DNA from: Desulfurivibrionaceae bacterium
Lineage (GTDB): Bacteria; Desulfobacterota; Desulfobulbia; Desulfobulbales; UBA5123
Length of the DNA: 60,440 bases
Assembly: GCA_030145325.1 (NCBI GenBank)
Contig: JAQYVW010000013.1
Span: 1 to 60,440 of the forward strand
Reading direction: 5' to 3'
Each line of letters begins with the position of its first letter. The first letter of the stretch is position 1. A program made the translations under genes and the position numbers. The notes below the pieces were generated by a model. The model had not been told where the DNA came from. It saw only the letters and a program-made list of their open reading frames with translations, and searched no databases. Positions 4,314-19,320 of the stretch are shown in pieces.

Positions 4314-5708
4314 ATGGAAGAGAATAGCAATAAACAGCCACAAATAGTTATCCTTGATGATGAGGTGGTCACTGTTCGCCGCCTAGTTCATGCTTTAAAA
4401 CGCGACGGCTATCACACCGAAGGGTTCGTCGATACTGCCGAGGCCATGGGGCGTATTCGCCAGTCTCCGCCCGATGTTCTGATTATGGACGTTCATCTCC
4501 AGGGCGCTGACGGCGTTGATCTCATGCAACGGCTGCATCCCCTTATCCCAGATACCGCTGTGATACTCATCACCGGCTATGCCTCCATTGATAATGCCGT
4601 AGATGCCACCAAGAAAGGGGCATTCCATTATCTGGCCAAGCCTTTTCGTTTGGAAACCTTACGGGCAGTTATTGCCGAAGCCTTGCGGCACGTAACGGAA
4701 TCAGCTTCTGACGACGATGCGACCAAAAGCAAAGGCAAGTCGGATCGTTTTGGCGATATCATTGGTGCATCTCCACCAATGCGGGCCATTTTTAAGACCA
4801 TTGCCCAAGTTGCGCCAGTGGATTGCAATGTCCTGATCAGCGGCGAATCCGGCACCGGCAAGGAGTTGGTAGCCCGCTCTCTACACCAGAACAGTCCTCG
4901 CGCCAACGCTCCGTTTGTCCCTTTTAACTGTGGCGCTTTTGCCGAAGATTTGGTCGCCAATGAACTTTTTGGTCACGAAAAAGGCGCATTCACCGGGGCG
5001 GAAAGTACCCGCTGGGGATTGCTGGAGTCTGCCAATGGCGGTACGGTTTTCCTTGATGAAGTTGGCGAGATGCCACTATCCATGCAGGTTAAGCTGCTCA
5101 GGGTTATCCAAGAACGAACCTTTTTGCGAGTGGGCGGTGTGAAACCGGTGGGACTTGATGTCCGTTTTATTGCCGCTTCCAACCAAGACATGGAGAAGAT
5201 GATCGCCACCAATGCTTTCCGCCAGGATCTCTATTTCCGGCTGAAGGTGGTGATGATCGACATGCCCCCTCTGCGCAAGCGGCAGGAGGATATTCCCGCT
5301 CTGCTGGTTCACTTTGCTGATTATTTTGCCAAACAATTCGGTAAACCGCAGCCCAAAATAGCCGATGAATTTTTGACTGCTTTGATGGATTACTCCTTCC
5401 CCGGTAATGTTCGAGAGTTGCAGCATATTGCCGAGCGAGCGGTGGCGCTTTCTCGGGCCGGAATCCTGCGCATAGCCGATCTGCCACCAGACCTTTCCCT
5501 TGGCGACGCCAAGCCGGTTCCCGCTGACGAAGCGGTACAACCCCTGAAAGCGTTGGAAAAAGACCATATCTATGAAGTGTATCGCCAATCCGGTTTTAAT
5601 CAGAGTGAAACCGCCCGGATGCTGGGGATTTCCCGCACCACCCTTTGGCGCCGTCTACACGAGTTCGACCTCATGCCGCCCAGAAAGAATCGCCTCAACA
5701 AGTCGTAG
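4314..5708 (+). CDS. NtrC-family sigma54-dependent response regulator
   Basis: 464 aa with the full NtrC layout. A receiver domain spans residues 10-125 with phospho-acceptor Asp59 (LIMDVHL), the switch Thr in LITGYA and Lys in LAKPF. An AAA+ domain spans about 150-390 with Walker A GESGTGKE at 177-184 and the sigma54-contacting GAFTGA loop at 224-229. A Fis-type helix-turn-helix lies at about 415-460 (NQSETARMLGISRTTLWRRL). It therefore activates sigma54 promoters when phosphorylated. The next gene downstream has an excellent -24/-12 promoter (6181-6197) preceded by paired 19-bp inverted sites, the likely targets. The kinase at 11819 is the natural partner, by synteny. The start codon lacks a strong Shine-Dalgarno. 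The target assignment is inference; the family is certain. Confidence 0.95.
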   Translation: MEENSNKQPQIVILDDEVVTVRRLVHALKRDGYHTEGFVDTAEAMGRIRQSPPDVLIMDVHLQGADGVDLMQRLHPLIPDTAVILITGYASIDNAVDATKKGAFHYLAKPFRLETLRAVIAEALRHVTESASDDDATKSKGKSDRFGDIIGASPPMRAIFKTIAQVAPVDCNVLISGESGTGKELVARSLHQNSPRANAPFVPFNCGAFAEDLVANELFGHEKGAFTGAESTRWGLLESANGGTVFLDEVGEMPLSMQVKLLRVIQERTFLRVGGVKPVGLDVRFIAASNQDMEKMIATNAFRQDLYFRLKVVMIDMPPLRKRQEDIPALLVHFADYFAKQFGKPQPKIADEFLTALMDYSFPGNVRELQHIAERAVALSRAGILRIADLPPDLSLGDAKPVPADEAVQPLKALEKDHIYEVYRQSGFNQSETARMLGISRTTLWRRLHEFDLMPPRKNRLNKS

Positions 5709-6085: not shown

Positions 6086-6180
6086 TTTCCGCAAAGAATA
6101 AACCTATCTTTCCGATCCTTTTTTTAAAACTTTCCTTGCGAAATCAGCCTTTTACTTGAGCAACCAATTATTATTGTTGC

Positions 6181-6197
6181 CCGGCACAACAATTGCT
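6181..6197 (+). promoter_or_regulatory. sigma54 (-24/-12) promoter
   Basis: The sequence CCGGCACAACAATTGCT matches TGGCAC-N5-TTGCW: the GG (6183-6184) and GC (6195-6196) dinucleotides are exactly 10 bp apart. The predicted transcription start is about 6208, giving a 32-nt leader with AGGAGG (6224-6229) before the GTG at 6240. Paired operators lie upstream at 6002-6085. The box lies inside the longest possible reading frame of the next gene, which rules out the upstream TTG at 6156 as its start. Confidence 0.8.
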
Positions 6198-6239
6198 CAT
6201 AGACAGCCTGAAGTTAACGTATCAGGAGGGACAGGAAGT

Positions 6240-6767
6240 GTGAAGGCTTTGGGGAAACAGTTCGAGGAAGCAGGGATTGCTCTATTGATTAAGGGCAATT
6301 CAGCGGATCTGTGCGCCAGCCTGCATGCTTTTGAGCTTGCCAAGAGAACCGACAAGATCGTTCATGCCTTGATCCTTGGTCGCGACAGGGGAGCTGTCCC
6401 GGCTGGATCGAACGTTAAGGACGTCGGAGATCGTTTTCAAGATCCGATCTTGCTTGCTGCTTGGCTGGGGCAAGCAGAGGGGTTGCGAGTTTGCTGGCAT
6501 ACCTTGCTTGACGCTGCCGATGAGGAGTTGCTTGATTTTTTCAGGGCTCACCGCATCTTTTGTTTGATTGCTGGCGCTCGTTCGAAAAAAGCCATGCAAA
6601 GTAAGACTCGTTGGCTGGAAGGTTTGCGAAGCAAGTTGCTCAATGATGCGCACTGGTATCCTCGTGCTTTCTGGGTGCTGGTAACCGAACCATGGGACAG
6701 CACGATGTTTGATCGGGTTGTACAACAACTGTCTTCCCAGGAAAATGGGACGGCAGAGATGGTTTAA
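6240..6767 (+). CDS. Universal-stress-protein-like alpha/beta protein
   Basis: 175 aa from GTG 6240, chosen because AGGAGG lies 10 bp upstream and the sigma54 box lies before it; an in-frame TTG at 6156 would be upstream of the transcript. The chain alternates predicted strands and helices (KIVHALILGRDRG, GLRVCWHTLLD, IFCLIAGARSKKAM, AFWVLVTEPW), which recalls the Rossmann-like universal stress fold, but I see no clear GX2GX9G ATP motif, so nucleotide binding is doubtful. It is cytoplasmic: no signal peptide or membrane segment. As the first gene of the sigma54-driven operon, 37 bp ahead of the TauE/SafE transporter, it probably belongs to the same response. The family is tentative; the gene itself is well supported. 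Confidence 0.6.
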   Translation: MKALGKQFEEAGIALLIKGNSADLCASLHAFELAKRTDKIVHALILGRDRGAVPAGSNVKDVGDRFQDPILLAAWLGQAEGLRVCWHTLLDAADEELLDFFRAHRIFCLIAGARSKKAMQSKTRWLEGLRSKLLNDAHWYPRAFWVLVTEPWDSTMFDRVVQQLSSQENGTAEMV

Positions 6768-6804
6768 ACACTTATTTTAATTTTTTTTTATGGAGGAAGA
6801 AACA

Positions 6805-7731
6805 ATGTTCATGTATTTACCAATCGCCCTGACCAGCGTAAATTATATGGTGGTCATGGGGCTGGGGCTCTTCGTGGGGCTGCTTTCCGGCCTGTTTGGA
6901 GTTGGTGGCGGCTTCTTGATGACGCCACTACTGATGATGATCGGCATTCCGCCGACCATCGCTGCCGCCACTGATGCCAACCAGATTGTCGCTGCGTCCG
7001 CATCCGGCACCTTGGCCCATTGGCGGCTTGGCAATGTCGATTTCAAGATGGGTCTGTATCTACTGGTTGGTGGTTTCATGGGTGGCGCCGGTGGTGTCCA
7101 AGTTATCAAGATCCTCCGGGCCACAGGTGGCGCGGATTTCCTGATTAAGATGACCTATGTGGTCATGCTGGGACTAGTAGGAGCTTTCATGTTTGTGGAA
7201 AGCCTCAACGCCATGCGCAAGAACAAGGCTACCGCTGGTGGCGCTCCGGAAGCAGCTCCAGTCAAGAAGTCCGGCGGTTTATTGAGCAAGTTGCCCATGC
7301 AGACTGTTTTTGAAAAATCAGGGGTTACCCATTCCGCTATCTTGCCCGTTGCTCTCGGCACCTTTGTTGGTGTTTTGGCGGCGATCATGGGCGTTGGCGG
7401 TGGTTTCCTGATGGTACCGGTGATGATCTACATGCTCCGGATGCCCATGCATGTTGTGGTTGGCACCAGCCTTTTCCAAATCATGTTCACCTGTACCGAG
7501 GTTACTTTCCTCCAGGCGTACAGTAACCATACCGTTGATTTTCTTCTGGCCCTGCTGCTATTGGTTGGGTCGGTTTTTGGCGCCCAGATCGGCACCATCC
7601 TTGGCCGTAAACTGCAAGGCGAACAATTAAAGATACTTCTTTCCATCCTTGTTTTAGCGGTAACCGTAAAAATTATTCTGGAGCTGGTCATGGAACCGAC
7701 GCTCCTGCTCGCATATGCTGGAGGACACTGA
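6805..7731 (+). CDS. TauE/SafE (TSUP) family membrane transporter
   Basis: 308 aa from ATG 6805, which has GGAGGA 7 bp upstream; an ATG at 6790 overlaps that ribosome-binding site and is rejected. It is a polytopic membrane protein of about eight helices in two homologous halves, each opening with the family signature: GLLSGLFGVGGGFLMTP near residue 25 and GVLAAIMGVGGGFLMVP near 189. A polar cytoplasmic loop (NKATAGGAPEAAPVKKSGG) joins the halves. Characterised family members move sulfite, sulfoacetate or related small anions, often outward; the substrate here cannot be read. It ends 2 bp before a TIGR02186 protein, and I know that pairing from other genomes, so the two probably act together. 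Confidence 0.9.
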   Translation: MFMYLPIALTSVNYMVVMGLGLFVGLLSGLFGVGGGFLMTPLLMMIGIPPTIAAATDANQIVAASASGTLAHWRLGNVDFKMGLYLLVGGFMGGAGGVQVIKILRATGGADFLIKMTYVVMLGLVGAFMFVESLNAMRKNKATAGGAPEAAPVKKSGGLLSKLPMQTVFEKSGVTHSAILPVALGTFVGVLAAIMGVGGGFLMVPVMIYMLRMPMHVVVGTSLFQIMFTCTEVTFLQAYSNHTVDFLLALLLLVGSVFGAQIGTILGRKLQGEQLKILLSILVLAVTVKIILELVMEPTLLLAYAGGH

Positions 7732-7733
7732 TC

Positions 7734-8525
7734 ATGGTAGGTACTAAAATTTCAACGAACGGCCTTTTTTCTTTCCTGGCTGGAATTCTTTTTGTCGTCA
7801 TGGCGCTGCCTGCTGCCCAGGCGCAGGCACTTTCCTGCAAGGTTGCCCCCAACGATATTCCTATCAATCTTATGTACAATGGCGCCACCCTTACCATTAC
7901 TGGTGTCAGTGCCCCCGGTGATGACCTTATCGTCAAAGTTAGTTCAGAAACCACTGACGTACATTTGAAGTACAAGGGCAAGGCCAGCGGCTTGTTCTGG
8001 ATGAAGATGGGCGGGATGGAATTCAAGAATGTGCCCAATATCTACATGCTTTACAGCACCGGCTCCATTGACACCCTGCTGAACGCCGACGGTCGCACCG
8101 CGAACATGATCGGCTATGACGCCATCCGGGCCGGAGTGGAAATGGAACGTTCCGACGGCACGGAAGTAGAGGCTAAATGGTTTGAAGAATTCCTGAAGTT
8201 TAAGAAGACGGAAGAGCTCTACCTCTCTAAGGAGGGCTCCATCGTCCGTAAGCAAGGTGCAACAGACAACACCTACTCCCTCACGGTAGACTGGCCTTTT
8301 CAGGCCCCGCCGGCAACGTACACCGTTGATGTTCTGGCGGTGCGTGATGGCAAGGTAGTTGACAAGAGCAGCGCTCCCTTTACGGTTGCTCAAGCCGGAA
8401 TCGTTAAACAGTTGTCCGGGATGGCCTTCAACAATTCCGCCCTGTATGGTTTCGTGGCAGTAGTTATCGCCATGGTTGCTGGTTTTGCAGTGGGTGCGGT
8501 TTTCAAGGGTGGCGGCAGCCATTAA
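7734..8525 (+). CDS. TIGR02186 / Alph_Pro_TM family membrane-anchored periplasmic protein
   Basis: 263 aa with a cleavable-looking signal peptide (residues 1-31, ending ALPAAQAQA), a beta-rich periplasmic region, and one C-terminal membrane helix at about 234-257 followed by FKGGGSH. The pattern (ITGVSAPGDDLIVKVSS, then GLFWMKMG, then VPNIYMLYSTG) is that of the TIGR02186 family of unknown function. Its gene starts 2 bp after the TauE/SafE transporter stop, with GGAGG 10 bp ahead of the ATG inside the upstream gene's end, so the two are translated from one message. A role as extracytoplasmic partner of the transporter is inference from synteny; no enzymatic motif is visible. Confidence 0.85.
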   Translation: MVGTKISTNGLFSFLAGILFVVMALPAAQAQALSCKVAPNDIPINLMYNGATLTITGVSAPGDDLIVKVSSETTDVHLKYKGKASGLFWMKMGGMEFKNVPNIYMLYSTGSIDTLLNADGRTANMIGYDAIRAGVEMERSDGTEVEAKWFEEFLKFKKTEELYLSKEGSIVRKQGATDNTYSLTVDWPFQAPPATYTVDVLAVRDGKVVDKSSAPFTVAQAGIVKQLSGMAFNNSALYGFVAVVIAMVAGFAVGAVFKGGGSH

Positions 8526-8622: not shown

Positions 8623-11214
8623 TTGCTCAACCGTCTGAAAGAATTATTAAATTTACCTTGGCTGCAATCTGCGGCTGACGCTTCGACCTGTTCCCCGGCG
8701 GAACTCATTTTCAAACGGTTCCGCCGGGTGCTGCAGGTTAATAATCGCGCCCTCACCATTATCGCTGACCTGGGCGAAAAGCTCAGCGGCGATTATATCT
8801 TTGATCAACAATATATTATCCGCAGTACCGAAACCCTCACCGAAACCGTTGCTGAATCCCTTGCGGCCCTAAACATTCTCACCGGCAATAAGTATCAAGA
8901 GCTTGATCCTGTTTTCCAGAAACTCACCTCACGTTTACAAGCGATCATTGCCCGCCGGGAAGATCGGCATGGCCCTCAGCTCATTGCCCTGGACAAGGTA
9001 ACCACCATCGATTGGGCCATTGTCGGCGGCAAGAACGCCCATTTGGCTGAGATGGCTCATGATCCGCAAATTTTGGTGGCGGATGGGTTTGTGATCACCA
9101 CCTGTGCCTATCACGAGTTGATCGATGCCAACAATCTACGCGAGGATCTAGATCGTTTTGAGTTGATGATGGCCGACCCCACGGTGGCGGCGGCAGACCT
9201 TGATGCCCTTCGGCAGCGCTTAGAAAGAGGGGTGCTTGCTGCCGAACCACCTCCCGGTCTCCTTGACGGTCTGACCGCGACCATTGCGGAGATGGGTGGG
9301 GATGGTGACGATGAGCCTTTTTTCCTCGCTGTTCGCAGCAGCGCCCAGGAAGAGGATATGGATTTTTCCTTTGCCGGTCAATTCCACACCGAACTGAATG
9401 TGGCGGCGGTTGCTGATGCTGTTTTTGACGCTTATCGCAAGGTGGCTGCCAGTCTCTTCGGGGCCAAGGCCATTCGCTATCGGCGGCAGATGTTCCCGGA
9501 GGATGGGCAGATGTCCATTGCCGCCGGTTGTCAGCGGATGATTGACTCACGCGCCGCCGGGGTTGTCTACACCGTTGAACCAGACGCCCCGGCGTCTGAT
9601 CATTTGGTTATCGTTGGCGCTTGGGGGCAGGGGGAAGCGGTGGTGGAAGGATCCACCCCCACCGACACCTTTATCGTTGCCAAGCAGGCGCCTTGGGAGG
9701 TGGTGGAGCAAAGCGTTGCCGACAAGGCCAATGGTATCTATCTTGCTGACTCTGCGGGGTTGGTGGAAAAGTCGGTGCCCAGTGCATTGCGTTCAAAGCC
9801 CTGCCTTGAGCAACAACAGTTACAGGAGTTGACCCGGCAGGCAGTTCATCTTGAAAACTACTATAAACGCCCTCAAGATATAGAGTGGGCGGTGGCAGCG
9901 GATGGCACTCTTTTTATCTTGCAGTGTCGTTCCTTGCTGCTCTCGGAGCCGTCCGGCGAACAGCGGGGCTTGCCCAAGCTTCTTGATCAATATCAGGTCT
10001 TAAGTGACGACAGCGGGCGAGTGGCTCAGCAAGGGATTGGTTCCGGGCCAGTGGTGGTGATCAATAGCCCTACTGATCTGGAAAACTTCCCCGATGGCGG
10101 GGTCTTGGTCAGTCGGCGAGATTCGTCACGGTTCATTACCGTAATGCACCGGGCGGTGGCCATTGTTACCGAAGTCGGCACCCCGGTAAGTCATATGGCC
10201 ACCCTCTGTCGGGAGCTGCGAGTTCCCTGTCTGGTCGGGGTCGATAACATTTTGAGCAAGTTGACGCCGGGTGAAGTGATTACCGTTGACGCAGAGGATA
10301 GGCGTATTTATCACGGTCGAGTGACGGAGCTCCTTACCTATCAGGCCACCAACAGCATGAACCTGGCGGTGAGTTATGAGTTCAGGTTGTTGCGGCGGTT
10401 GTTGCAGGCAGTTTCCCGACTCTATCTAGTTGATCCACTGATGCAGGACTTCACCCCGGCAGGGTGTAAAACCTATCATGATATCCTCCGCTTCAGTCAT
10501 GAAATGGCGGTTGCGCAACTGGTTGATGTGGGTCGCGACGAAAAGAGTTTGCGCAAGCATCATCTCGCCCGTCACCTTGACCTACCCATTCCGGCCGGGA
10601 TTATGGTCATTGATCTTGACGACGGCATTGCCCCGGATGCGCCTGTTGACCAAGTTCCTTTTACCGCTATCACCTCGCTTCCCTTTCGGGCTATTTTACA
10701 AGGAATGCTCTTCCCCGAGGTCTGGCATCGAAAAACCATGCCGGTGGGGATGAAGGATCTGATGAGCAGTATGCTCAATGCCCCTTCAGATGCCCTTAGT
10801 GGCCAGTATTCCGGTCATAATATTGCGATTATCAGCAAGGAGTATGTCAACCTCTGCTTCCGCTTCGGCTATCATTTCAATATCATTGATGCCCATTGCA
10901 GTGAGCGGGAACGGGATAATCACATCTACTTCCGCTTCTTGGGCGGCGCCACCGACATGACCAAACGCTCCCGTCGTTCGCGGATGATCGCCGCCATACT
11001 CGATGCTTTTGAGTTCAATGTTTCCACTCGCGGCGATCTGGTTATTGCCAGGGCTGGCAACATGGTGCAAAGTGAAATGGAAAGAACCCTCGATATCATG
11101 GGGCGCTTGGTGGGTTTTACTCGCCAGCTTGATGTCTGCCTCGACAACGATGCGATAGTTGACCAGTATGTGGAAGCCTTTCTCTCTGGGGATTACGGGA
11201 TCGTTAATTTGTAA
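8623..11214 (+). CDS. PEP-synthase-like phosphotransferase lacking the PEP barrel, paralogue 1
   Basis: 863 aa, TTG start with GGGAGGA about 9 bp upstream. Domains in order: a helical N-terminal region (1-115; FKRFRRVLQVNN, GDYIFDQ) shared with the other two paralogues; an ATP-grasp pyruvate-phosphate-dikinase N domain (about 125-440) with VGGKNAHLAEM, AVRSSAQEED, SFAGQFHTELNV and PQDIEWAVAADGTLFILQCR; a swivelling phospho-histidine domain with His524 in VSHMATLCRE; and a C-terminal domain (about 600-863) opening with CKTYHDILRFSHEMAV. The PEP/pyruvate TIM barrel of true PEP synthase (its catalytic C-terminal half) is absent. ATP-dependent autophosphorylation of the histidine is plausible; the acceptor is unknown. 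The gene follows the TIGR02186 gene by 97 bp and is probably in the sigma54 operon. Confidence 0.85.
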   Translation: MLNRLKELLNLPWLQSAADASTCSPAELIFKRFRRVLQVNNRALTIIADLGEKLSGDYIFDQQYIIRSTETLTETVAESLAALNILTGNKYQELDPVFQKLTSRLQAIIARREDRHGPQLIALDKVTTIDWAIVGGKNAHLAEMAHDPQILVADGFVITTCAYHELIDANNLREDLDRFELMMADPTVAAADLDALRQRLERGVLAAEPPPGLLDGLTATIAEMGGDGDDEPFFLAVRSSAQEEDMDFSFAGQFHTELNVAAVADAVFDAYRKVAASLFGAKAIRYRRQMFPEDGQMSIAAGCQRMIDSRAAGVVYTVEPDAPASDHLVIVGAWGQGEAVVEGSTPTDTFIVAKQAPWEVVEQSVADKANGIYLADSAGLVEKSVPSALRSKPCLEQQQLQELTRQAVHLENYYKRPQDIEWAVAADGTLFILQCRSLLLSEPSGEQRGLPKLLDQYQVLSDDSGRVAQQGIGSGPVVVINSPTDLENFPDGGVLVSRRDSSRFITVMHRAVAIVTEVGTPVSHMATLCRELRVPCLVGVDNILSKLTPGEVITVDAEDRRIYHGRVTELLTYQATNSMNLAVSYEFRLLRRLLQAVSRLYLVDPLMQDFTPAGCKTYHDILRFSHEMAVAQLVDVGRDEKSLRKHHLARHLDLPIPAGIMVIDLDDGIAPDAPVDQVPFTAITSLPFRAILQGMLFPEVWHRKTMPVGMKDLMSSMLNAPSDALSGQYSGHNIAIISKEYVNLCFRFGYHFNIIDAHCSERERDNHIYFRFLGGATDMTKRSRRSRMIAAILDAFEFNVSTRGDLVIARAGNMVQSEMERTLDIMGRLVGFTRQLDVCLDNDAIVDQYVEAFLSGDYGIVNL

Positions 11215-11388
11215 CTATCCAGCAGCACGGCATTTGGAATCACACTTTGCATGCTTACCTGCAGCGCTACTGAATAATTAGAAATACGGGGCCAATCGAA
11301 AGTTTTTCGTTCCAAGCTTGAGAGGTACTTTCTTTTAAGACACCTTGGGATGTAGGTATTAGGTAATTTTTTTGTGGGAGAAACGAAG

Positions 11389-11808
11389 ATGACAGAGGCA
11401 ACGGGCAACGACAGAATTTGGCGACTACTGGTGGTTGACGATGAGGCCATCGTCGGCAAGCGCTTACAGCAGGTTTTCGGCAAGATGGGCTTTGTGGTGG
11501 AATCTCACACCAGCCCGGCGGTAGCCCTTGAGGCCATGGCCGCGCAACCTTTTGATATCGTGGTCACCGACCTGAAGATGGAAGACATTGACGGCATTGA
11601 GGTCTTAAGCCGGGCCAAGACCATCAATCCGGCCGCACAGGTAATTATCATCACCGGCTACGCCCATTCGGAAACGGAAAACGAAGCCTTTGCCAAGGGG
11701 GTCTTTGCCTTTATCGCCAAACCCTTTCGCCTTGACGAACTGAAACAGGTTATCAACCGGGCTCTGGACGAATTGCGGCAGCAAGCAGTCGTTCCAAGCG
11801 CAGAATAG
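11389..11808 (+). CDS. Single-domain response regulator (receiver only)
   Basis: 139 aa from ATG 11389, with GGGAG 8 bp upstream; the GTG at 11374 overlaps that site and is rejected. It is a complete receiver domain: acidic pair in LLVVDDEAIV, phospho-acceptor Asp61 (VVTDLKM), Thr in IIITGYA and Lys in IAKPFRL. There is no output domain, so it works as a phosphate shuttle or by binding a partner. It begins 174 bp after the first dikinase-like gene and ends 10 bp before the histidine kinase at 11819, its obvious partner. The gap may hold a second promoter, but no good box was found; a sigma54-like pair there has the wrong spacing. Confidence 0.9.
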   Translation: MTEATGNDRIWRLLVVDDEAIVGKRLQQVFGKMGFVVESHTSPAVALEAMAAQPFDIVVTDLKMEDIDGIEVLSRAKTINPAAQVIIITGYAHSETENEAFAKGVFAFIAKPFRLDELKQVINRALDELRQQAVVPSAE

Positions 11809-11818
11809 GAGTGGAAGC

Positions 11819-13318
11819 ATGCCGGAGCAATCCTTGAATGAGGCAGGGCAAGCCCCCCCGGAGCAGTCGCGACCGTTGGTTGATTTAGGATTTCTTAATC
11901 CTCGATCCATTCGTGGCAAGATTATCATTAGCCTCTTGGCTCTGTATTTCCTTGGTAGCCTAGCCGCCCTCGCCGCCCTTTTTTCCACCTCACGGGTGGA
12001 GAGCAAGATCCAGGTCATCGAATCTTTTTACGAGTTGAACCAAAAGATTCTGGAAACGCGCCGCCATGAAAAGAATTTCCTTCTCTATGGTAACCGCGCC
12101 GACCGGGAGAGCGCTCTCAAGTACCTTGAAGATGTGCGCGAGACCATCAATAAACCCATGGAAGCCTTTTTTGACTCCGACGAGCAGGTTGCCTTAACCC
12201 GTAATGTCGAGCTAGATGATTATGGGCGGATTCTTAAGAAGTTGGGAGAGCCGGATTTGCCGGCGGCAAACGAGGCCGTCCTGAAAGCGAAGTTGCGCCG
12301 ACTAGGGCATGAGTTGACCCAAGTTGTTTTTGAATTGGATACTCGGGCCCGGCGAGGGGTGGAGAAAGAGGCACGGCAATATCGAGAGATGGTTCTCGGC
12401 ATCCTGGGCACAGCCTTGATGTTCGGGGCGTTACTCTGTATCTTTCTGGTGCGCTGGATTGTGCAACCTCTGCAAGCCATCCGCCAGGCCACCCGCCGGA
12501 TCATGCTTGGTGAGATGTCCACCATTCCCATGGGGCGGGCTATCCGTAGCTCCATCGAAGGCATGGAGTTGGTGGAATCCCTTAACAAGATGCTTTCTGC
12601 CTTGGAAGCCAAGCAGAACCAGTTGATTCAGTCCACCAAACTTGCCGCCATCGGCAAGGTGACCGCCGGTATCGCCCACGAAATCAATAATCCCCTCAAC
12701 AACATCTCCCTTACCGCCGAGGTGTTGCTTGAGGATCTGCCCAACCTTGAGTGCTCCGAGCGCATGGAGATGGTTCGTGATGTCCTGGTGCAGGCGGATC
12801 GAGCTCGGGAAGTGGTGCGACATCTCCTTGATTTTTCACGCACTCGGAAGCCCACCGCCTGGGACAAAGTGGATCTACTCAGGTTGCTCTCCGCCTCCAT
12901 GGTGCTGCTTAAAAATCAGTTGCGCATCGGCCAGATCAAGACCGAGGCCTCTTTCCCTGAAGAGCAATTGGTGGTGATGGGCAACCCCAACCAACTCCAG
13001 CAGGTGCTGGTTAATATCATTTTGAACGGTATTCAGGCCATGCAACCGGGGGGAATGTTGCGTTTGACGGCAACTCATGATTTTGAAAACCAACAGGCGT
13101 TGCTGACCATCAGCGATACCGGCTCCGGGATCCCGGCGGCCAGTCAGGCCCAGATCTTCGACCCATTTTTTACCACCAAGAATGACGGCACCGGCCTGGG
13201 GTTGTCGGTGAGTTATGCCATTATCCGTGACCATCAGGGCGATATAACCCTGACCAGCAATCCGGAACAGGGCACAACCTTTCAGATTCACCTGCCGCTG
13301 TTGGCTAACGAGGAGTAA
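11819..13318 (+). CDS. Membrane sensor histidine kinase (NtrB/ZraS type)
   Basis: 499 aa. Membrane helix 1 (about 36-56), an extracytoplasmic helical sensor region (about 60-187; RRHEKNFLLYGNRADRESA suggests a four-helix bundle), membrane helix 2 (about 188-211), HAMP, HisKA with phospho-acceptor His287 in GIAHEINNPLNN, and a HATPase domain with N box QVLVNIILNGIQAM, G1 DTGSGIP and G2 GTGLGLSV. This kinase class usually pairs with NtrC-type regulators, which points to the protein at 4314 as well as the receiver directly upstream. It is followed 4 bp later by the second dikinase-like gene, with GAGGAG inside its own 3' end serving that gene. Signal unknown. Confidence 0.93.
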   Translation: MPEQSLNEAGQAPPEQSRPLVDLGFLNPRSIRGKIIISLLALYFLGSLAALAALFSTSRVESKIQVIESFYELNQKILETRRHEKNFLLYGNRADRESALKYLEDVRETINKPMEAFFDSDEQVALTRNVELDDYGRILKKLGEPDLPAANEAVLKAKLRRLGHELTQVVFELDTRARRGVEKEARQYREMVLGILGTALMFGALLCIFLVRWIVQPLQAIRQATRRIMLGEMSTIPMGRAIRSSIEGMELVESLNKMLSALEAKQNQLIQSTKLAAIGKVTAGIAHEINNPLNNISLTAEVLLEDLPNLECSERMEMVRDVLVQADRAREVVRHLLDFSRTRKPTAWDKVDLLRLLSASMVLLKNQLRIGQIKTEASFPEEQLVVMGNPNQLQQVLVNIILNGIQAMQPGGMLRLTATHDFENQQALLTISDTGSGIPAASQAQIFDPFFTTKNDGTGLGLSVSYAIIRDHQGDITLTSNPEQGTTFQIHLPLLANEE

Positions 13319-13322
13319 CCGG

Positions 13323-15842
13323 ATGGAGCCTCCTGCTGCTAGCCAATTTTCCATCCCATTTAAGAAATTCCGCCGGATACTTGAGTGCAACAACGCGGTG
13401 ATTGAAAAAATTGCCGAGATGGAAAGCGCCTTGGGCGGCGAATATGTTTTTGATCAGGCCTTCTTACGCAGTGCGGTGGCTGAACTTGGCAAACTGGTAC
13501 GCGAGGTCGTTTACAGCCTCAATGATCTGTCTGACAACCGTTTTTTGCCGCTTTATGATCGCTTTGAGGCGATCCATAACCACCTCCAAGATCTGGTTTC
13601 CTCCGGCCCTGGCCCTTATGCCGACCACCTGGCCCTCCCCTACTATTTGCTCAATCGCGATCTCGACCATCTGGTGGGGGCCAAGAATGCCAATCTCGGC
13701 GAAATTCGCAACTATCTCCACTTACCGACCCCTGATGGTTTTGCCATCACCGGCGCGGCCTATAATCTGTTTATGGAGGAAAACGATCTCTTTGTCCAGA
13801 TCGAAGAGATGGCCAAGGCAGTAACGGATAATACTGAACGGGCGGCGCGGATTAGCGAAATGTTCAAGGCGGCGGTGATGCCGACATCTCTTCAGGAAAC
13901 CGTGCGGGAGCAGCTGGCGGTATTGGTTGCGAAGATCGGTTCCAGAAAACAGCTTTCGGTGCGCAGCAGTGGGGTGGGCGAAGATGGTAGCCGCAGTTTT
14001 GCCGGCCAGTTTCTTTCTCTGCTGCCGGTGCAGCCGAAACTGAAAAACCTCCTGGCGGCCTATCAGCAAGTGCTGGCGGCCCGTTTCACCGCCCAAGTCC
14101 TGGATTATCTTGGTGACGAGGTGCAGGTGCGGGCGGTGCCCATGGCAGTGGCCGTTCAGGAGTATATCCCCGTTCGCCAAGCCGGGGTTATCTATACCCT
14201 TGATACCACTGCGGCTCAGGACCGAGAACTACTGACCATAACCGCCACCATTGGCGCAGGCGCAGAACTGGTTTCAGGCCGTACAGATGGTGACCGCTAT
14301 CACCTCTCTCGCCAACACCCATTCGCGCCGGTGCGCAGTACGCTCTGCGGCCAGACCGGCGACGACCCGTTGCAAATTGGCGAGGACGGTTTGCGCCGGG
14401 GCTCGGCCACGCTGGAACGGGGGTTCTTTACCCCGTTGGCCGAAGCCGGGATGTTGCTGGAAAAGGCCTTTGATCGACCCCAGGATATCGAGTGGGGCCG
14501 TGACGATAACGGGCGGTTAGTTATTCTACAGAGTAGGCGGTTAAATTTGCCGCCCCGGCCCCCACCACAACCGGGCAGGGTTGCCGCCGAGTTGCGGCAA
14601 GCCGTCTTGCTCATGCAGGGGACTGGTCAGGTGGCGCAACTGGGGATTGGCTCTGGACCGGTGGTGCATGTGGAAGCGGATGGCGACCCGGCGGATTTTC
14701 CGGTGGGCGGGGTGGCGGTCTGTCGTTATGCCAGTCCGCAGCTGAGTGGGGTTGTCCGCAAGGCGGCAGCAATTATCACCGATGTTGGTAGCGCCACCGG
14801 CCACCTAGCTGCCATTGCCAGAGAGTACCGGACTCCGGCCCTGTTCGGCACCGGCAACGCCACCGAGATCTTGAACGAAGGGGGGAATGTCACCGTCGAC
14901 GCCGAGGAGAAACGCGTTTATGCCGGTTTCATCAAGGGGCTGGTGGCCTTGCAGGCGTCGGCCCAGGATGAACCGTATCTCTCCACCCCGGAGGTGCGAA
15001 CCTTACGGCGGATGTTGCGCTGGACGGCGCCGATCAATCTCACCGATCCCACCGCCACAACCTTTCAGGCCGTGAATTGCCATACCCTCCACGACATTAT
15101 TCGCTTCTCCCATGAAAAAGCAGTGGAGAGTCTAATCCTGCTCCATTCCTCCGAGAAGATTGCTGCCGGGACCAGTAGTCGCGATTTGCAACTACCCTTG
15201 CCGATCAGGATTCGGCTTATCGATCTGGGCGGCGGCCTTGGCGCTGATCTTGCCCCCGAGGGGGAGATTCCACGCCAGCAGGTGCAAAGTCGCCCTTTTA
15301 ATGCCCTGCTGGAGGGCATGCTGGGGGAAGGGGTCTGGGATCGAGAACCAGCCCCCTTCGGTCTCCGGGATCTGCTTAGCAACATGAGCCGCCCCCTGTC
15401 GGCTCTCACCAACGCCCCCGCCTATTCCGGCGACAATTTGGCGATTATCGCGGAAAATTACTGCAACCTCAGCCTTCGCCTGGGCTATCATTTTAATGTC
15501 ATCGACTCCTATCTCTCCGCCGACCCTGACGATAACTACATCTATTTTCGTTTTGTCGGCGGCTTTGCCGACAAGGAAAAGAAAATTCGTCGCGCCGCCT
15601 TGATCGCCTCCATCCTTAACAGTCTCTATTTTAAGGTTGAACAGCAGGGAGACCTGATTGTCGGCAAGGTCAAGATGCTCGACCAAGATCACATGACCGC
15701 CATTCTCACCCGGTTGGGTGAATTGGTCGGCTTCACCCGCCAGCTGGATGTGCGGATGGTTGATGAGCAAGCCGCTGAGAGCTATTTTGCCGAATTTCTT
15801 GAGAGAACCAGGCAACCCTTTCCTGCCGACAACCAAGGGTAG
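13323..15842 (+). CDS. PEP-synthase-like phosphotransferase lacking the PEP barrel, paralogue 2
   Basis: 839 aa with the same four-part layout as the gene at 8623: N-terminal helical region (FKKFRRILECNN, GEYVFDQ); ATP-grasp domain with GAKNANLGEI, SVRSSGVGEDG, SFAGQF and PQDIEWGRDDNGRLVILQ; swivel domain with His494 in ATGHLAAIARE; and the shared C-terminal domain from about Cys586 (CHTLHDIIRFSHEKAV, then LGYHFNVID and YIYFRFVGG). In the lysine-bearing nucleotide loop the usual GGK is GAK, but the lysine is kept. It lies between the kinase (4 bp) and paralogue 3 (5 bp), so it is strictly co-transcribed. Divergence from paralogues 1 and 3 is large, which suggests separate partners or subunits, not recent duplication. 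The acceptor is unknown. Confidence 0.85.
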   Translation: MEPPAASQFSIPFKKFRRILECNNAVIEKIAEMESALGGEYVFDQAFLRSAVAELGKLVREVVYSLNDLSDNRFLPLYDRFEAIHNHLQDLVSSGPGPYADHLALPYYLLNRDLDHLVGAKNANLGEIRNYLHLPTPDGFAITGAAYNLFMEENDLFVQIEEMAKAVTDNTERAARISEMFKAAVMPTSLQETVREQLAVLVAKIGSRKQLSVRSSGVGEDGSRSFAGQFLSLLPVQPKLKNLLAAYQQVLAARFTAQVLDYLGDEVQVRAVPMAVAVQEYIPVRQAGVIYTLDTTAAQDRELLTITATIGAGAELVSGRTDGDRYHLSRQHPFAPVRSTLCGQTGDDPLQIGEDGLRRGSATLERGFFTPLAEAGMLLEKAFDRPQDIEWGRDDNGRLVILQSRRLNLPPRPPPQPGRVAAELRQAVLLMQGTGQVAQLGIGSGPVVHVEADGDPADFPVGGVAVCRYASPQLSGVVRKAAAIITDVGSATGHLAAIAREYRTPALFGTGNATEILNEGGNVTVDAEEKRVYAGFIKGLVALQASAQDEPYLSTPEVRTLRRMLRWTAPINLTDPTATTFQAVNCHTLHDIIRFSHEKAVESLILLHSSEKIAAGTSSRDLQLPLPIRIRLIDLGGGLGADLAPEGEIPRQQVQSRPFNALLEGMLGEGVWDREPAPFGLRDLLSNMSRPLSALTNAPAYSGDNLAIIAENYCNLSLRLGYHFNVIDSYLSADPDDNYIYFRFVGGFADKEKKIRRAALIASILNSLYFKVEQQGDLIVGKVKMLDQDHMTAILTRLGELVGFTRQLDVRMVDEQAAESYFAEFLERTRQPFPADNQG

Positions 15843-15847
15843 AGACC

Positions 15848-18457
15848 ATGCGCAACTGGTTTAAACATATCCTCCAGACCAGACGTGAGAAGAAGCAGGA
15901 GCAGGCGACCCGCTATCTGGAGATCCTCAAGGGACGTTACCACACCTTCCGCTCCCTGCTGGACAGTAACAACCGGGCCGTGGAATTGATCACCGAACTG
16001 GGAATGCGCTTGCGCGCCGCCCCCCAGGCCGACCTGAAACTCACCCAGCGGACAGAAGAACTCCTGGAGGTCACCGGCGAGATGGTGGAGAAGCTGATCC
16101 ATCTCGATAACGGTCGTTCCCACGGGCTGCTCTTACGTCATCATCGCTTGCAAGAAAAGATCAACGCCCTTACCGCCACCTTGCCCACCATTGAGCATCT
16201 CCCTCTCTGCATCACCCTTGACAAAGCTGATAATCCTGCCGCCGTGGGGGGCAAGGCCGCAGCCCTGGGCAAGCTCCGCCGCGCCGGTGTATGCCGGGTG
16301 CCCGATGGCTTTGTGGTGCCAGTGCATGCCTGCCGTCTATTTCTGGAGCAGGGGGATCTTTCCTTTCGCTTGGTGGGTCGATTGCAGCGCTATCTGCGCA
16401 CCGGCAGCAAGGAAATTCCAGATGCAGTTATCGATGAAATCCATGCTGCAATCATGGCCGCGCCCTTGCCTCCCGCCTTGGCGAGAATTTTGGCCTCGGC
16501 CAGCCGTCCCTTTTTCAGCGCCGGACGGGGGCTGGCGGTGCGGAGCAGCGGGATCAGCGAAGATGGTCGCCGGCATTCCTTTGCCGGTCAGTTCGCCACG
16601 GTTTTAAATGTCACCGAACCAGTGGCACTGGCCACTGCTTTTAAAGAGGTGGTGGCCAGCGCCTTTAACACCCGCAGTATTGCCTACCGGGTGAACAGCG
16701 GCCTTGAACCTCTGGCCTTTGAGATGGCGGTGCTCTGTCTGGAGATGGTTCCAGCTCGCGCCGCCGGGATTCTCTTTACCCGTGATCCCAATCAGCCGGA
16801 AACGGATCGGATGCTGGTCACCGGCGTGTTGGGGATGGGGGATGCAGCGGTGAGCGGGGCAGCGGTGAGCGATATCTTTACCGTAACCCGTACCGGCAAG
16901 CTGGTGGATTCAGCCACCAGCATCGCCAGCAAGGAAACCCGGCAGGTTTGCCTTCCCCAAGGCGGGGTGGGCGAGGAGTTGGTTCCCCAAGAAGAACAAC
17001 AGTTGCCATCACTCACCACCGCCCAGCTTGAACTCCTGGTCGTCTGGAGCCTGTTCATTGAGCGGGATGGTGGTTGTCCGCAGGATGTGGAGTGGGCCAT
17101 CAATGGCCAGGGAGAGCCGGTGATCCTTCAGGCCCGGCCATTGCTGCTGGCCCGTCGCTCCAAGGCAGGCCCTGGGCAACGAGTTGATCCCGCCCAGGTT
17201 CTCCTGGCTGACGGGGTGGAGACCTCTCCGGGGCGGGCCACCGGCCAAGCGATGATTATCCGTAACCGTCAAGATCTCCAAAACCTGCCTGAGGGACCCG
17301 TTATTCTGGTTTTGCATCAGAGCATGGTGGATGCGGTCAATGTTCTTGACAAGGTGGGCGGGGTACTGGTGGATCTTGGCAACCCGGCGGATCATCTCTC
17401 CTGTGTGGCCCGCGAATACGGGCTACCAATGCTCACCGGCCTGCGCCGGGCAACAGCAGAGCTCAGCAATGGTCAATGGCTAACCGTGGAGAGCCGGGGC
17501 GGATTAGTAACGAAGGCGGATACCCAGGCCATTGCCGAAGCCGAAGTCATTGCCGCTGACCGTAAGCTCGCGCCACCGGTGACGGTAACCGCACAGAGCG
17601 AGGAGTCCCCAGAGATCAACCAGTTGCGGCAATTAATGGTGCAACTGAATCTCACCGATGCCTACGGCCCCACCTTCTCCATTGCCGAATGCCGTTCCCT
17701 CCATGATATCGTCCGCTATATCCATGAAAAAGCAGTGCTCTCGATGTTCAACGCCAACGACGCAACCCTTGAGGATACCTCCGGGGTTGTCGTCCACCTA
17801 CAGTCAGAGGTGCCGTTCATGGTCAGCATCATCGATTTGGGCGGGGGGCTGATACCTAAGCGCAAACATAAACGACGGGTATCACCGGAGGAGGTGGTGG
17901 CACCACCGTTCAAGGCGCTATGGCGCGGGGTTGCCACACCTGGGTTGAACTGGGGGCCAGCGTCCGGCGGCAGCATCAACGGCGTGATGTCCAACTATCT
18001 CACCGACCATCGTTCTGCCCGGCCAGTGGGGATGCCCAACTATCTCATCGTCAGCCGCGACTACTTGAATCTCAACGCCCGCATGGATTTCCATTTCACC
18101 ATGGTGGACGCGGTCTGCGGCTTCGACCCTTACCAGAACTACGTCAAGTTCCGCTTCAAGGGCGGCGGCACCACCCCGGAGCGCCGCCAACGCCGAGCCA
18201 ACTGCATTGCCAGAATCCTTGAAGCCCACGATTTTTTCACCGATGCCCGTGACGATCTGGTCAACGCCAACCTGCATGGGGTGCCCCAAGAGGTAATCGA
18301 GGAAAAACTCGTTGTCTTGGGCCAGTTATTGGGTTTTACGAGGTTACTGGACGCAGTGATGGCCGATGACGAGATGGTGGAGCGGATTGCCGAGGCATTC
18401 TTGGCGGGCAATTTTTCCTTGGCAGGAATCAGGCCGGAAGCAGGTGGACAGGAGTGA
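15848..18457 (+). CDS. PEP-synthase-like phosphotransferase lacking the PEP barrel, paralogue 3
   Basis: 869 aa. N-terminal helical region (YHTFRSLLDSNN); ATP-grasp domain with VGGKAAALGKL, AVRSSGISEDGRRHSFAGQF and PQDVEWAINGQGEPVILQAR; swivel domain with His516 in PADHLSCVARE; shared C-terminal domain from about Cys615 (CRSLHDIVRYIHEKAV, IIDLGGGL, FHFTMVDA, YVKFRFKGGG, GFTRLLDAVM). The residue before the histidine differs in each paralogue (Ser, Gly, Asp), while His and the following ARE or CRE are kept, so phosphotransfer chemistry seems retained. It is the last gene of the operon; a strong terminator follows at 18603-18640. The PEP-binding barrel is absent, as in the other two, so annotation as PEP synthase would be wrong. 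Confidence 0.85.
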   Translation: MRNWFKHILQTRREKKQEQATRYLEILKGRYHTFRSLLDSNNRAVELITELGMRLRAAPQADLKLTQRTEELLEVTGEMVEKLIHLDNGRSHGLLLRHHRLQEKINALTATLPTIEHLPLCITLDKADNPAAVGGKAAALGKLRRAGVCRVPDGFVVPVHACRLFLEQGDLSFRLVGRLQRYLRTGSKEIPDAVIDEIHAAIMAAPLPPALARILASASRPFFSAGRGLAVRSSGISEDGRRHSFAGQFATVLNVTEPVALATAFKEVVASAFNTRSIAYRVNSGLEPLAFEMAVLCLEMVPARAAGILFTRDPNQPETDRMLVTGVLGMGDAAVSGAAVSDIFTVTRTGKLVDSATSIASKETRQVCLPQGGVGEELVPQEEQQLPSLTTAQLELLVVWSLFIERDGGCPQDVEWAINGQGEPVILQARPLLLARRSKAGPGQRVDPAQVLLADGVETSPGRATGQAMIIRNRQDLQNLPEGPVILVLHQSMVDAVNVLDKVGGVLVDLGNPADHLSCVAREYGLPMLTGLRRATAELSNGQWLTVESRGGLVTKADTQAIAEAEVIAADRKLAPPVTVTAQSEESPEINQLRQLMVQLNLTDAYGPTFSIAECRSLHDIVRYIHEKAVLSMFNANDATLEDTSGVVVHLQSEVPFMVSIIDLGGGLIPKRKHKRRVSPEEVVAPPFKALWRGVATPGLNWGPASGGSINGVMSNYLTDHRSARPVGMPNYLIVSRDYLNLNARMDFHFTMVDAVCGFDPYQNYVKFRFKGGGTTPERRQRRANCIARILEAHDFFTDARDDLVNANLHGVPQEVIEEKLVVLGQLLGFTRLLDAVMADDEMVERIAEAFLAGNFSLAGIRPEAGGQE

Positions 18458-18693: not shown

Positions 18694-19320
18694 CTACAAC
18701 CGGGTATCAAACACCAGTTTGCCACCCAAATGGCCAGCAAGCCCAGCGGTGGCAAGCATAACCACATTCACCAGCAGAAATAACCAACGTGATGACGAAG
18801 GAACATCCATAATCGTCGGATCATTATACCGCCAAGCCACCACCACCACTGCCGCCACCGTGCAGACAACGGCACAAACAATTTTGGTCACGAATATTTG
18901 CGTCATCGCCCCCTTATACCGCTTGTGCCAAGAGACATATCCGGAGAAGAGAACCACCGGCAGGGTAAGAACCACAAAGATCAAGTTGTAGTAGGCGGCC
19001 TCTTGCAAACCGGGGTGACCAAAGAATATGGCCAGCCCAACAAAGATCACCGCTGCCGGCAACACCCCGTTGGGGAAATGCACCGAAATGGGATGGAGAT
19101 GATTCTTATAGATATGGTCGGTCAGCATCTCGTAGCCCTTGGCAAGCAACGAGCCTTGCCCGGTGGACGATGAAGATCCAGCCACCATGGAGGCCAATTC
19201 TTCCCCCTCGGGGCCAACCTCAAAAAACTCACTGGCATCAGCATTACAGACGGGACATTTTGCCGGTGGCTCGTTACCGGCATGAATATAGCCACAAACC
19301 CTACATTTCCATTTTTTCAC
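18694..19320 (-). CDS. Rubredoxin-like domain fused to a DUF2231-type membrane protein
   Basis: 208 aa. Residues 1-34 form a rubredoxin-like iron centre of the rubrerythrin type (CRVCGYIHAG, then CPVCNA: two CxxC pairs). A Ser/Gly linker follows, then a membrane domain of four helices that starts with HPISVHFPNG, the histidine signature of DUF2231 proteins; these histidines may bind haem or metal. The soluble iron centre would face the cytoplasm, so electron transfer between a cytoplasmic donor and the membrane is a reasonable inference. The start ATG has AAGGAGG upstream (19327-19333), immediately beside a long hairpin (19332-19399) that could restrict expression. The gene lies downstream of tatBC on the same strand. 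Confidence 0.8.
   Translation of the reverse strand: MKKWKCRVCGYIHAGNEPPAKCPVCNADASEFFEVGPEGEELASMVAGSSSSTGQGSLLAKGYEMLTDHIYKNHLHPISVHFPNGVLPAAVIFVGLAIFFGHPGLQEAAYYNLIFVVLTLPVVLFSGYVSWHKRYKGAMTQIFVTKIVCAVVCTVAAVVVVAWRYNDPTIMDVPSSSRWLFLLVNVVMLATAGLAGHLGGKLVFDTRL

Follow-up and report, generated by a model that had tools for sequence, protein, structure and literature searches.

A stretch of 60,440 nucleotides from a Desulfurivibrionaceae bacterium (assembly GCA_030145325.1, contig JAQYVW010000013.1), hereafter the window, contains three paralogous genes whose products begin like PEP synthase and end in a domain unlike it. The locus raises the question of what these proteins are and to what acceptor they may pass a phosphate. 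The genes and their domains are as follows.

8623..11214, + strand: PEP1, an ORF of 863 aa, in the TauE/receiver-linked clade of the family tree; helical N-terminal region at about 1–120, ATP-grasp domain at 133–437, phospho-His domain at 489–558 (His524), C-terminal domain (CTD) at about 572–863
10336..11211, + strand: CTD of PEP1, 292 aa; listed residues C615, H619, D620, R623, H626, E627, D664, H751, D756, N766, F772, GG774-775, R785, D805, R834, and D837
13323..15842, + strand: PEP2, 839 aa, layout as in PEP1, His494, CTD from 14946; in a clade of its own
15848..18457, + strand: PEP3, 869 aa, layout as in PEP1, His516, CTD from 17537

The PPDK_N domain of Pfam was detected in PEP1 (E 1e-74), PEP2 (E 6e-52), and PEP3 (E 3e-64), and the PEP-utilizers mobile domain was present in all three. 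The original prediction had stated that the ATP-grasp motifs and the swivel-domain histidine are kept, and both statements proved correct. Thus, the K, R, E, D, E, Q, and R residues of all three proteins aligned with those of the genome's own PEP synthase (in PEP1, the core residues are K137, R238, E244, D245, E421, Q434, R436, and H524, with counterparts in PEP2 and PEP3). The histidine positions His524, His494, and His516 were exact: they aligned with His438 of the same PEP synthase, which is the phospho-transfer position, and also corresponded to the TSHAA histidine of PDB 8a8e. Among 153 non-redundant family members, the core catalytic residues were 97–100% conserved. To judge from these alignments, it is nearly certain that the dikinase core of PEP1–3 is intact; with this half intact, ATP should therefore be split to AMP and a phosphate placed on His524/494/516, following the established chemistry of PEP synthase and PPDK. 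Another PPDK_N protein of the same genome (contig C71:63758-64669, L158), about 1440 aa long, lies outside the PEP1–3 family and combines a long unrelated N-terminal region with a phospho-His domain.

The domain search showed that the PEP-utilizers_C barrel (PF02896) was absent from PEP1, PEP2, and PEP3, and the last ~290 aa of the three proteins had no Pfam or NCBIfam match. The true PEP synthase of the same genome (contig C58, L153) contained all three domains, with PF02896 at E 2e-55; since its barrel was detected, the missing barrel of PEP1–3 is a genuine absence, not a search artefact. As had been predicted, the PEP/pyruvate barrel is replaced in all three paralogues by a common CTD of ~290 residues. 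With the PEP1 CTD as the query, PEP2 was matched at E 1e-65 and PEP3 at E 7e-41, a sequence likeness far beyond chance, and contig C84 (L152) yielded a fourth paralogue at E 1e-73. The fourth paralogue has a histidine kinase and a receiver of 122 aa as neighbours and lies outside any TauE cluster.

Four motifs had been written for the shared CTD, of which two stand (C-x3-HDI-x-R-x2-HE-x-AV and IDL-x2-G) and two need correction. The pattern H-F-x3-[ID]-D-[AS] matched none of the three paralogues, its correct form being H-F-x2-[IV]-D-[AS], and Y-[IV]-x-FRF-x-GG failed in PEP1, which has NHIYFRFLGG. Alignments were made of 27 CTDs and then of 66 non-redundant ones. Across these 66 divergent sequences, 15 columns were invariant and mostly polar, including H619, D620, H626, D664, H751, N766, F772, G774, G775, R785, D805, and D837 in PEP1 numbering. 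Their spacing and the AlphaFold model suggest that H619, R623, H626, and E627 would all point to the same side of a predicted helix.

The domain could not be assigned to any known structure. Its AlphaFold model, built with 66 sequences, was confident and compact (pLDDT 87.2, pTM 0.78), and Foldseek found nothing significant for it in the PDB (best E 0.017) or in the BFVD library of viral structures (best E 0.0038 at TM 0.2). A divergent PEP barrel was rejected, because hhalign against the barrel of the genome's own PEP synthase gave a probability of 0.1, the predicted secondary structure was different, and no barrel was found by Foldseek. A known acceptor domain was rejected as well, since none of the 66 members had a significant Pfam match in the CTD and no relative of it was found among PDB sequences. 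The CTD is therefore neither a known barrel nor a named acceptor domain by Pfam, PDB sequence, hhalign, and Foldseek searches, in agreement with the original prediction. In structure prediction, the last ~130 residues folded on their own; their top Foldseek matches were YbjN-type proteins (2plg, 4h5b) and type-III chaperones, all weak and none significant (best 2plg, E 0.014, prob 0.89, TM 0.31). This modelled resemblance weakly suggests a topological lead only.

Comparison with known dikinases placed PEP1–3 apart from each of them. The ATP-grasp and phospho-His order is shared with PEP synthase (PpsA, TIGR01418; PDB 8a8e, 2ols), with all catalytic residues aligned, whereas the PEP-utilizers_C barrel is replaced by an unrelated domain and an extra N-terminus of ~120 residues is present. 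The scores of PEP1–3 against the NCBIfam PpsA equivalog (278, 203, and 225 bits) did not reach its cut-off of 739.75 bits. The CTD had also been likened to the swapped acceptor domain of rifampicin phosphotransferase (Rph; PDB 5hv1, 5fbs), in which a dikinase core serves a non-PEP acceptor. That comparison holds loosely: the core is shared, with an ATP-grasp match of ~320 residues, but the Rph drug domain was not detected in PEP1–3, and the scores of 182, 147, and 201 bits, derived from the shared core, fell below the 999-bit cut-off of NF041857. In Rph, the His domain is at the C-terminus, after the drug domain; the domain order of PEP1–3 follows PEP synthase and differs from this. In plants, glucan, water dikinase and SEX4-type phosphatase show that a dikinase and a dual-specificity phosphatase can act as a reversible pair. 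That dikinase has a polysaccharide substrate and a domain order other than that of the PEP1–3 family, and no carbohydrate genes were noted among the recurrent neighbours of the family.

PEP1–3 are members of a large family, unnamed in the open-licence papers covered, with a fixed architecture: a helical N-terminus, ATP-grasp, the swivelling phospho-His domain, and a CTD without a relative in Pfam or among PDB sequences. Of 297 genomes sampled from the phylum, 107 were positive for the CTD in a profile search, single genomes encoding as many as 8 copies; apart from a few truncated or split genes, the domain was joined to the dikinase core. A free-standing CTD protein was considered and rejected: among the eight ORFs shorter than 780 aa, five were cut at locus ends, one was split (L075), one was a remnant of a gene that sister genomes have at full length (L161), and another was an internal ORF of 404 aa (L133). 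In L075:953-4894, the family gene is apparently split into two adjoining ORFs of 545 and 767 aa. A tblastn search of plasmids for the family gave no match. On the tree of 153 sequences, PEP1, PEP2, and PEP3 each fell into a different, well-supported clade, and related genomes again contain these clades together; therefore, the operon of three paralogues is old and has been maintained.

The neighbouring genes of the window provide further evidence on function.

4314..5708, + strand: sigma-54-dependent response regulator, conserved in the neighbourhood of relatives
6156..6767, + strand: 203-aa protein upstream of TauE, no Pfam match
6790..7731, + strand: TauE/SafE-type permease (PF01925, E 3e-49), a conserved neighbour
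7734..8525, + strand: Alph_Pro_TM/TIGR02186-like membrane protein between the permease and PEP1 (PF09608, E 2e-47)
11374..11808, + strand: stand-alone CheY-like receiver (REC) with no output domain (Response_reg, E 2e-25; D22, D23, D66, T94, K116)
11819..13318, + strand: membrane sensor histidine kinase (HK; HAMP, HisKA, HATPase_c) with the H-box AHEINNPL

The receiver and the histidine kinase are located between PEP1 and PEP2. The order Usp-like slot, TauE, Alph_Pro_TM, PEP1, REC, HK, PEP2, and PEP3 is found again, slightly varied, in Desulfobulbales and relatives; the slot of the 203-aa protein is occupied by a 32% identical gene in L074 and by a gene with a Usp match in L087. A stand-alone REC was found within 300 bp of 44% of the 137 family genes, compared with 5% of the 983 remaining genes of these loci, and TauE within 3 kb of 38% of family genes, compared with 15% of the others; because the loci were picked for their family genes, the control is an internal one, and some come from related genomes, so the counts are not independent. 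Family genes were also linked to histidine kinases and Usp. In the 79 RECs adjoining family genes, the residues of phosphorylation were all kept, the acidic and Asp residues being conserved in 100% and the Lys in 99%. Other family members adjoin HAMP- or Cache-containing sigma-54 regulators, MFS or CitMHS transporters, Usp, and CBS proteins. In four loci of one bacterial family (L086, L092, L119, and L149), a subfamily lies between a ~900-aa sigma-54 activator, with a weak Cache-domain match in L086, and a ~420-aa transporter of MFS type, confirmed as MFS for L086 and L092, which suggests a separate transport-linked system. The sigma-54-dependent response regulator of the window is likely to exert transcriptional control of the cluster; a scan for sigma-54 promoters gave 8 matches against 12 expected by chance, and therefore no promoter is claimed.

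Phosphatase-like genes adjoined 15 of 25 members of the PEP3 clade and its sister clade, against 1 of 128 others, although several PEP3 loci end before the neighbouring region; the link is confined to this part of the tree. It comprises two unrelated folds: a convergent PPP-type metallophosphatase gene adjoined 10 of 18 PEP3-clade members (1 of 135 others), and a DSP-type gene was downstream of 5 of 7 sister-clade members (1 of 146 others). A specific link to PPP is weakened, because the gene occurs widely in the rest of the phylum, as a single copy in 125 of 297 genomes, and is on another contig, C88, in the window's own genome; thus, this link is suggestive only. In the window, the slot that holds the phosphatase in relatives is occupied by a gene at 18694-19320, convergent with PEP3, that encodes a rubredoxin-like domain fused to a DUF2231 membrane domain.

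A similar gene cluster has been studied genetically in Desulfovibrio. DVU0246 and Dde_0604 resemble the family in having PPDK_N and the mobile domain, with TauE, a histidine kinase, a receiver, and DSP as neighbours in matching order. Locus L159, in which the family member is on a long branch and has no TauE next door, has the order PtxB, HK, REC, family gene, DSP, which is that of DVU0249-DVU0245. Gene order and domain names thus indicate that DVU0246 probably belongs to the PEP1–3 family, although it is annotated at 745 codons, compared with 839–869 for PEP1–3, and its CTD is not described in PMC4001038. Isolated D. vulgaris mutants with transposon insertions in DVU0246 (PPDK-like), DVU0247 (receiver), DVU0250, and DVU0251 (TauE) grew equally with or without 100 mM nitrate, and mutants of the DvH PPDK-like gene grew on lactate and sulfate with the same kinetics in both cases (Korte et al., 2014, PMC4001038). 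In the same study, mutants of the DSP phosphatase DVU0245 stayed nitrate sensitive, the pooled result for DVU0250 disagreed with the isolated mutant, and D. alaskensis cluster mutants were mildly sick on thiosulfate. The authors suggested a leaky thiosulfate transporter (PMC4001038), and a later paper repeated the term "putative thiosulfate transporters" (PMC9723548). The shared nitrate resistance places the PPDK-like gene, the receiver, and DVU0250 in the same pathway as the TauE permease. Provided that DVU0246 belongs to the family, its loss copies the loss of the permease, and the protein therefore acts upstream of or inside the transport function.

The genomic context points more to a role in signalling or transport control than to a small-molecule dikinase. 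We tentatively propose, from the sequences and their context, that the proteins may be receiver-controlled ATP/His phosphotransferases in which the CTD would phosphorylate a regulatory target or bind to it, so that the anion permease is switched on; we give this reading a chance that approaches an even one without reaching it. Phosphate would pass from ATP onto His524/494/516, the His domain would swing to the CTD, and the CTD would bind a target protein or phosphorylatable regulator and hand the phosphate on. The adjoining histidine kinase and the output-less receiver would gate the transfer, with the receiver as a binding switch on the enzyme, and the PPP or DSP phosphatases of relatives would reverse the phosphorylation. 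As the outcome, the co-encoded TauE-type permease would be activated and would import a sulfur oxyanion, nitrate entering by accident, and the sigma-54 regulator would set the expression of the cluster. Several observations count against the proposal: roughly one in two family genes lacks a receiver within 300 bp, the phosphatase link is limited to one part of the tree, the PPP gene is convergent, common elsewhere, and on another contig in the window's genome, the DVU0245 mutants stay nitrate sensitive, the pooled and isolated DVU0250 results disagree, and the presence of three paralogues in one operon is not accounted for.

The CTD could instead bind and phosphorylate a small molecule imported by the permease, such as a sulfonate or a carboxylate, as Rph does rifampicin. 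Such a metabolic dikinase agrees with the intact core and with the different anion permeases near different subfamilies (TauE, MFS, CitMHS/DASS); however, it appears rather unlikely in view of the three paralogues in one operon and up to 8 per genome, the linkage to receivers and phosphatases, the lack of catabolic genes among recurrent family neighbours, and the identical kinetics of the DvH mutants on lactate and sulfate with or without nitrate (PMC4001038). Three paralogues and a canonical receiver in one operon, as well as a His domain shared with enzyme I of the PTS, would also fit an ATP-fed relay from phospho-His to a downstream protein (the REC Asp or the next paralogue), with the CTD as a docking module. 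We consider this improbable, since receivers are normally phosphorylated by histidine kinases, one of which is encoded between PEP1 and PEP2, numerous members lack a nearby receiver or paralogue, and no HPr or EII-like partner was noted among recurrent neighbours. Finally, the CTD might be purely regulatory or structural, as a sensor or a permease-binding module, with the core serving as a slow ATP/AMP switch that has no external acceptor. No catalytic domain was recognised in the CTD and its end weakly resembles the YbjN/type-III-chaperone fold, a protein-binding fold, but this resemblance is not significant (TM about 0.3), and the large number of invariant polar residues, those of the H-D-x2-R-x2-H-E helix face among them, is more reminiscent of an active site, which makes such a switch quite improbable.

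The family is present in more than one third of the genomes sampled from the phylum, frequently as several copies, and its members are annotated from their front half only. In its broadest form, which we regard as doubtful, the receiver-controlled phosphotransferase would represent a bacterial protein-phosphorylation system not recognised before, in which a dikinase exchanged its barrel for a protein-substrate domain of a new fold, is switched by a stand-alone receiver, has its action undone by phosphatases of the PPP or DSP type, and gates anion permeases in sulfate-reducer lineages. With the finding, the dikinase scaffold would gain an acceptor domain that may resemble a protein kinase. Together with the receiver and phosphatase partners, the tail domain makes the nitrate-resistance cluster of Desulfovibrio a testable pathway, which is relevant to the control of souring with nitrate.
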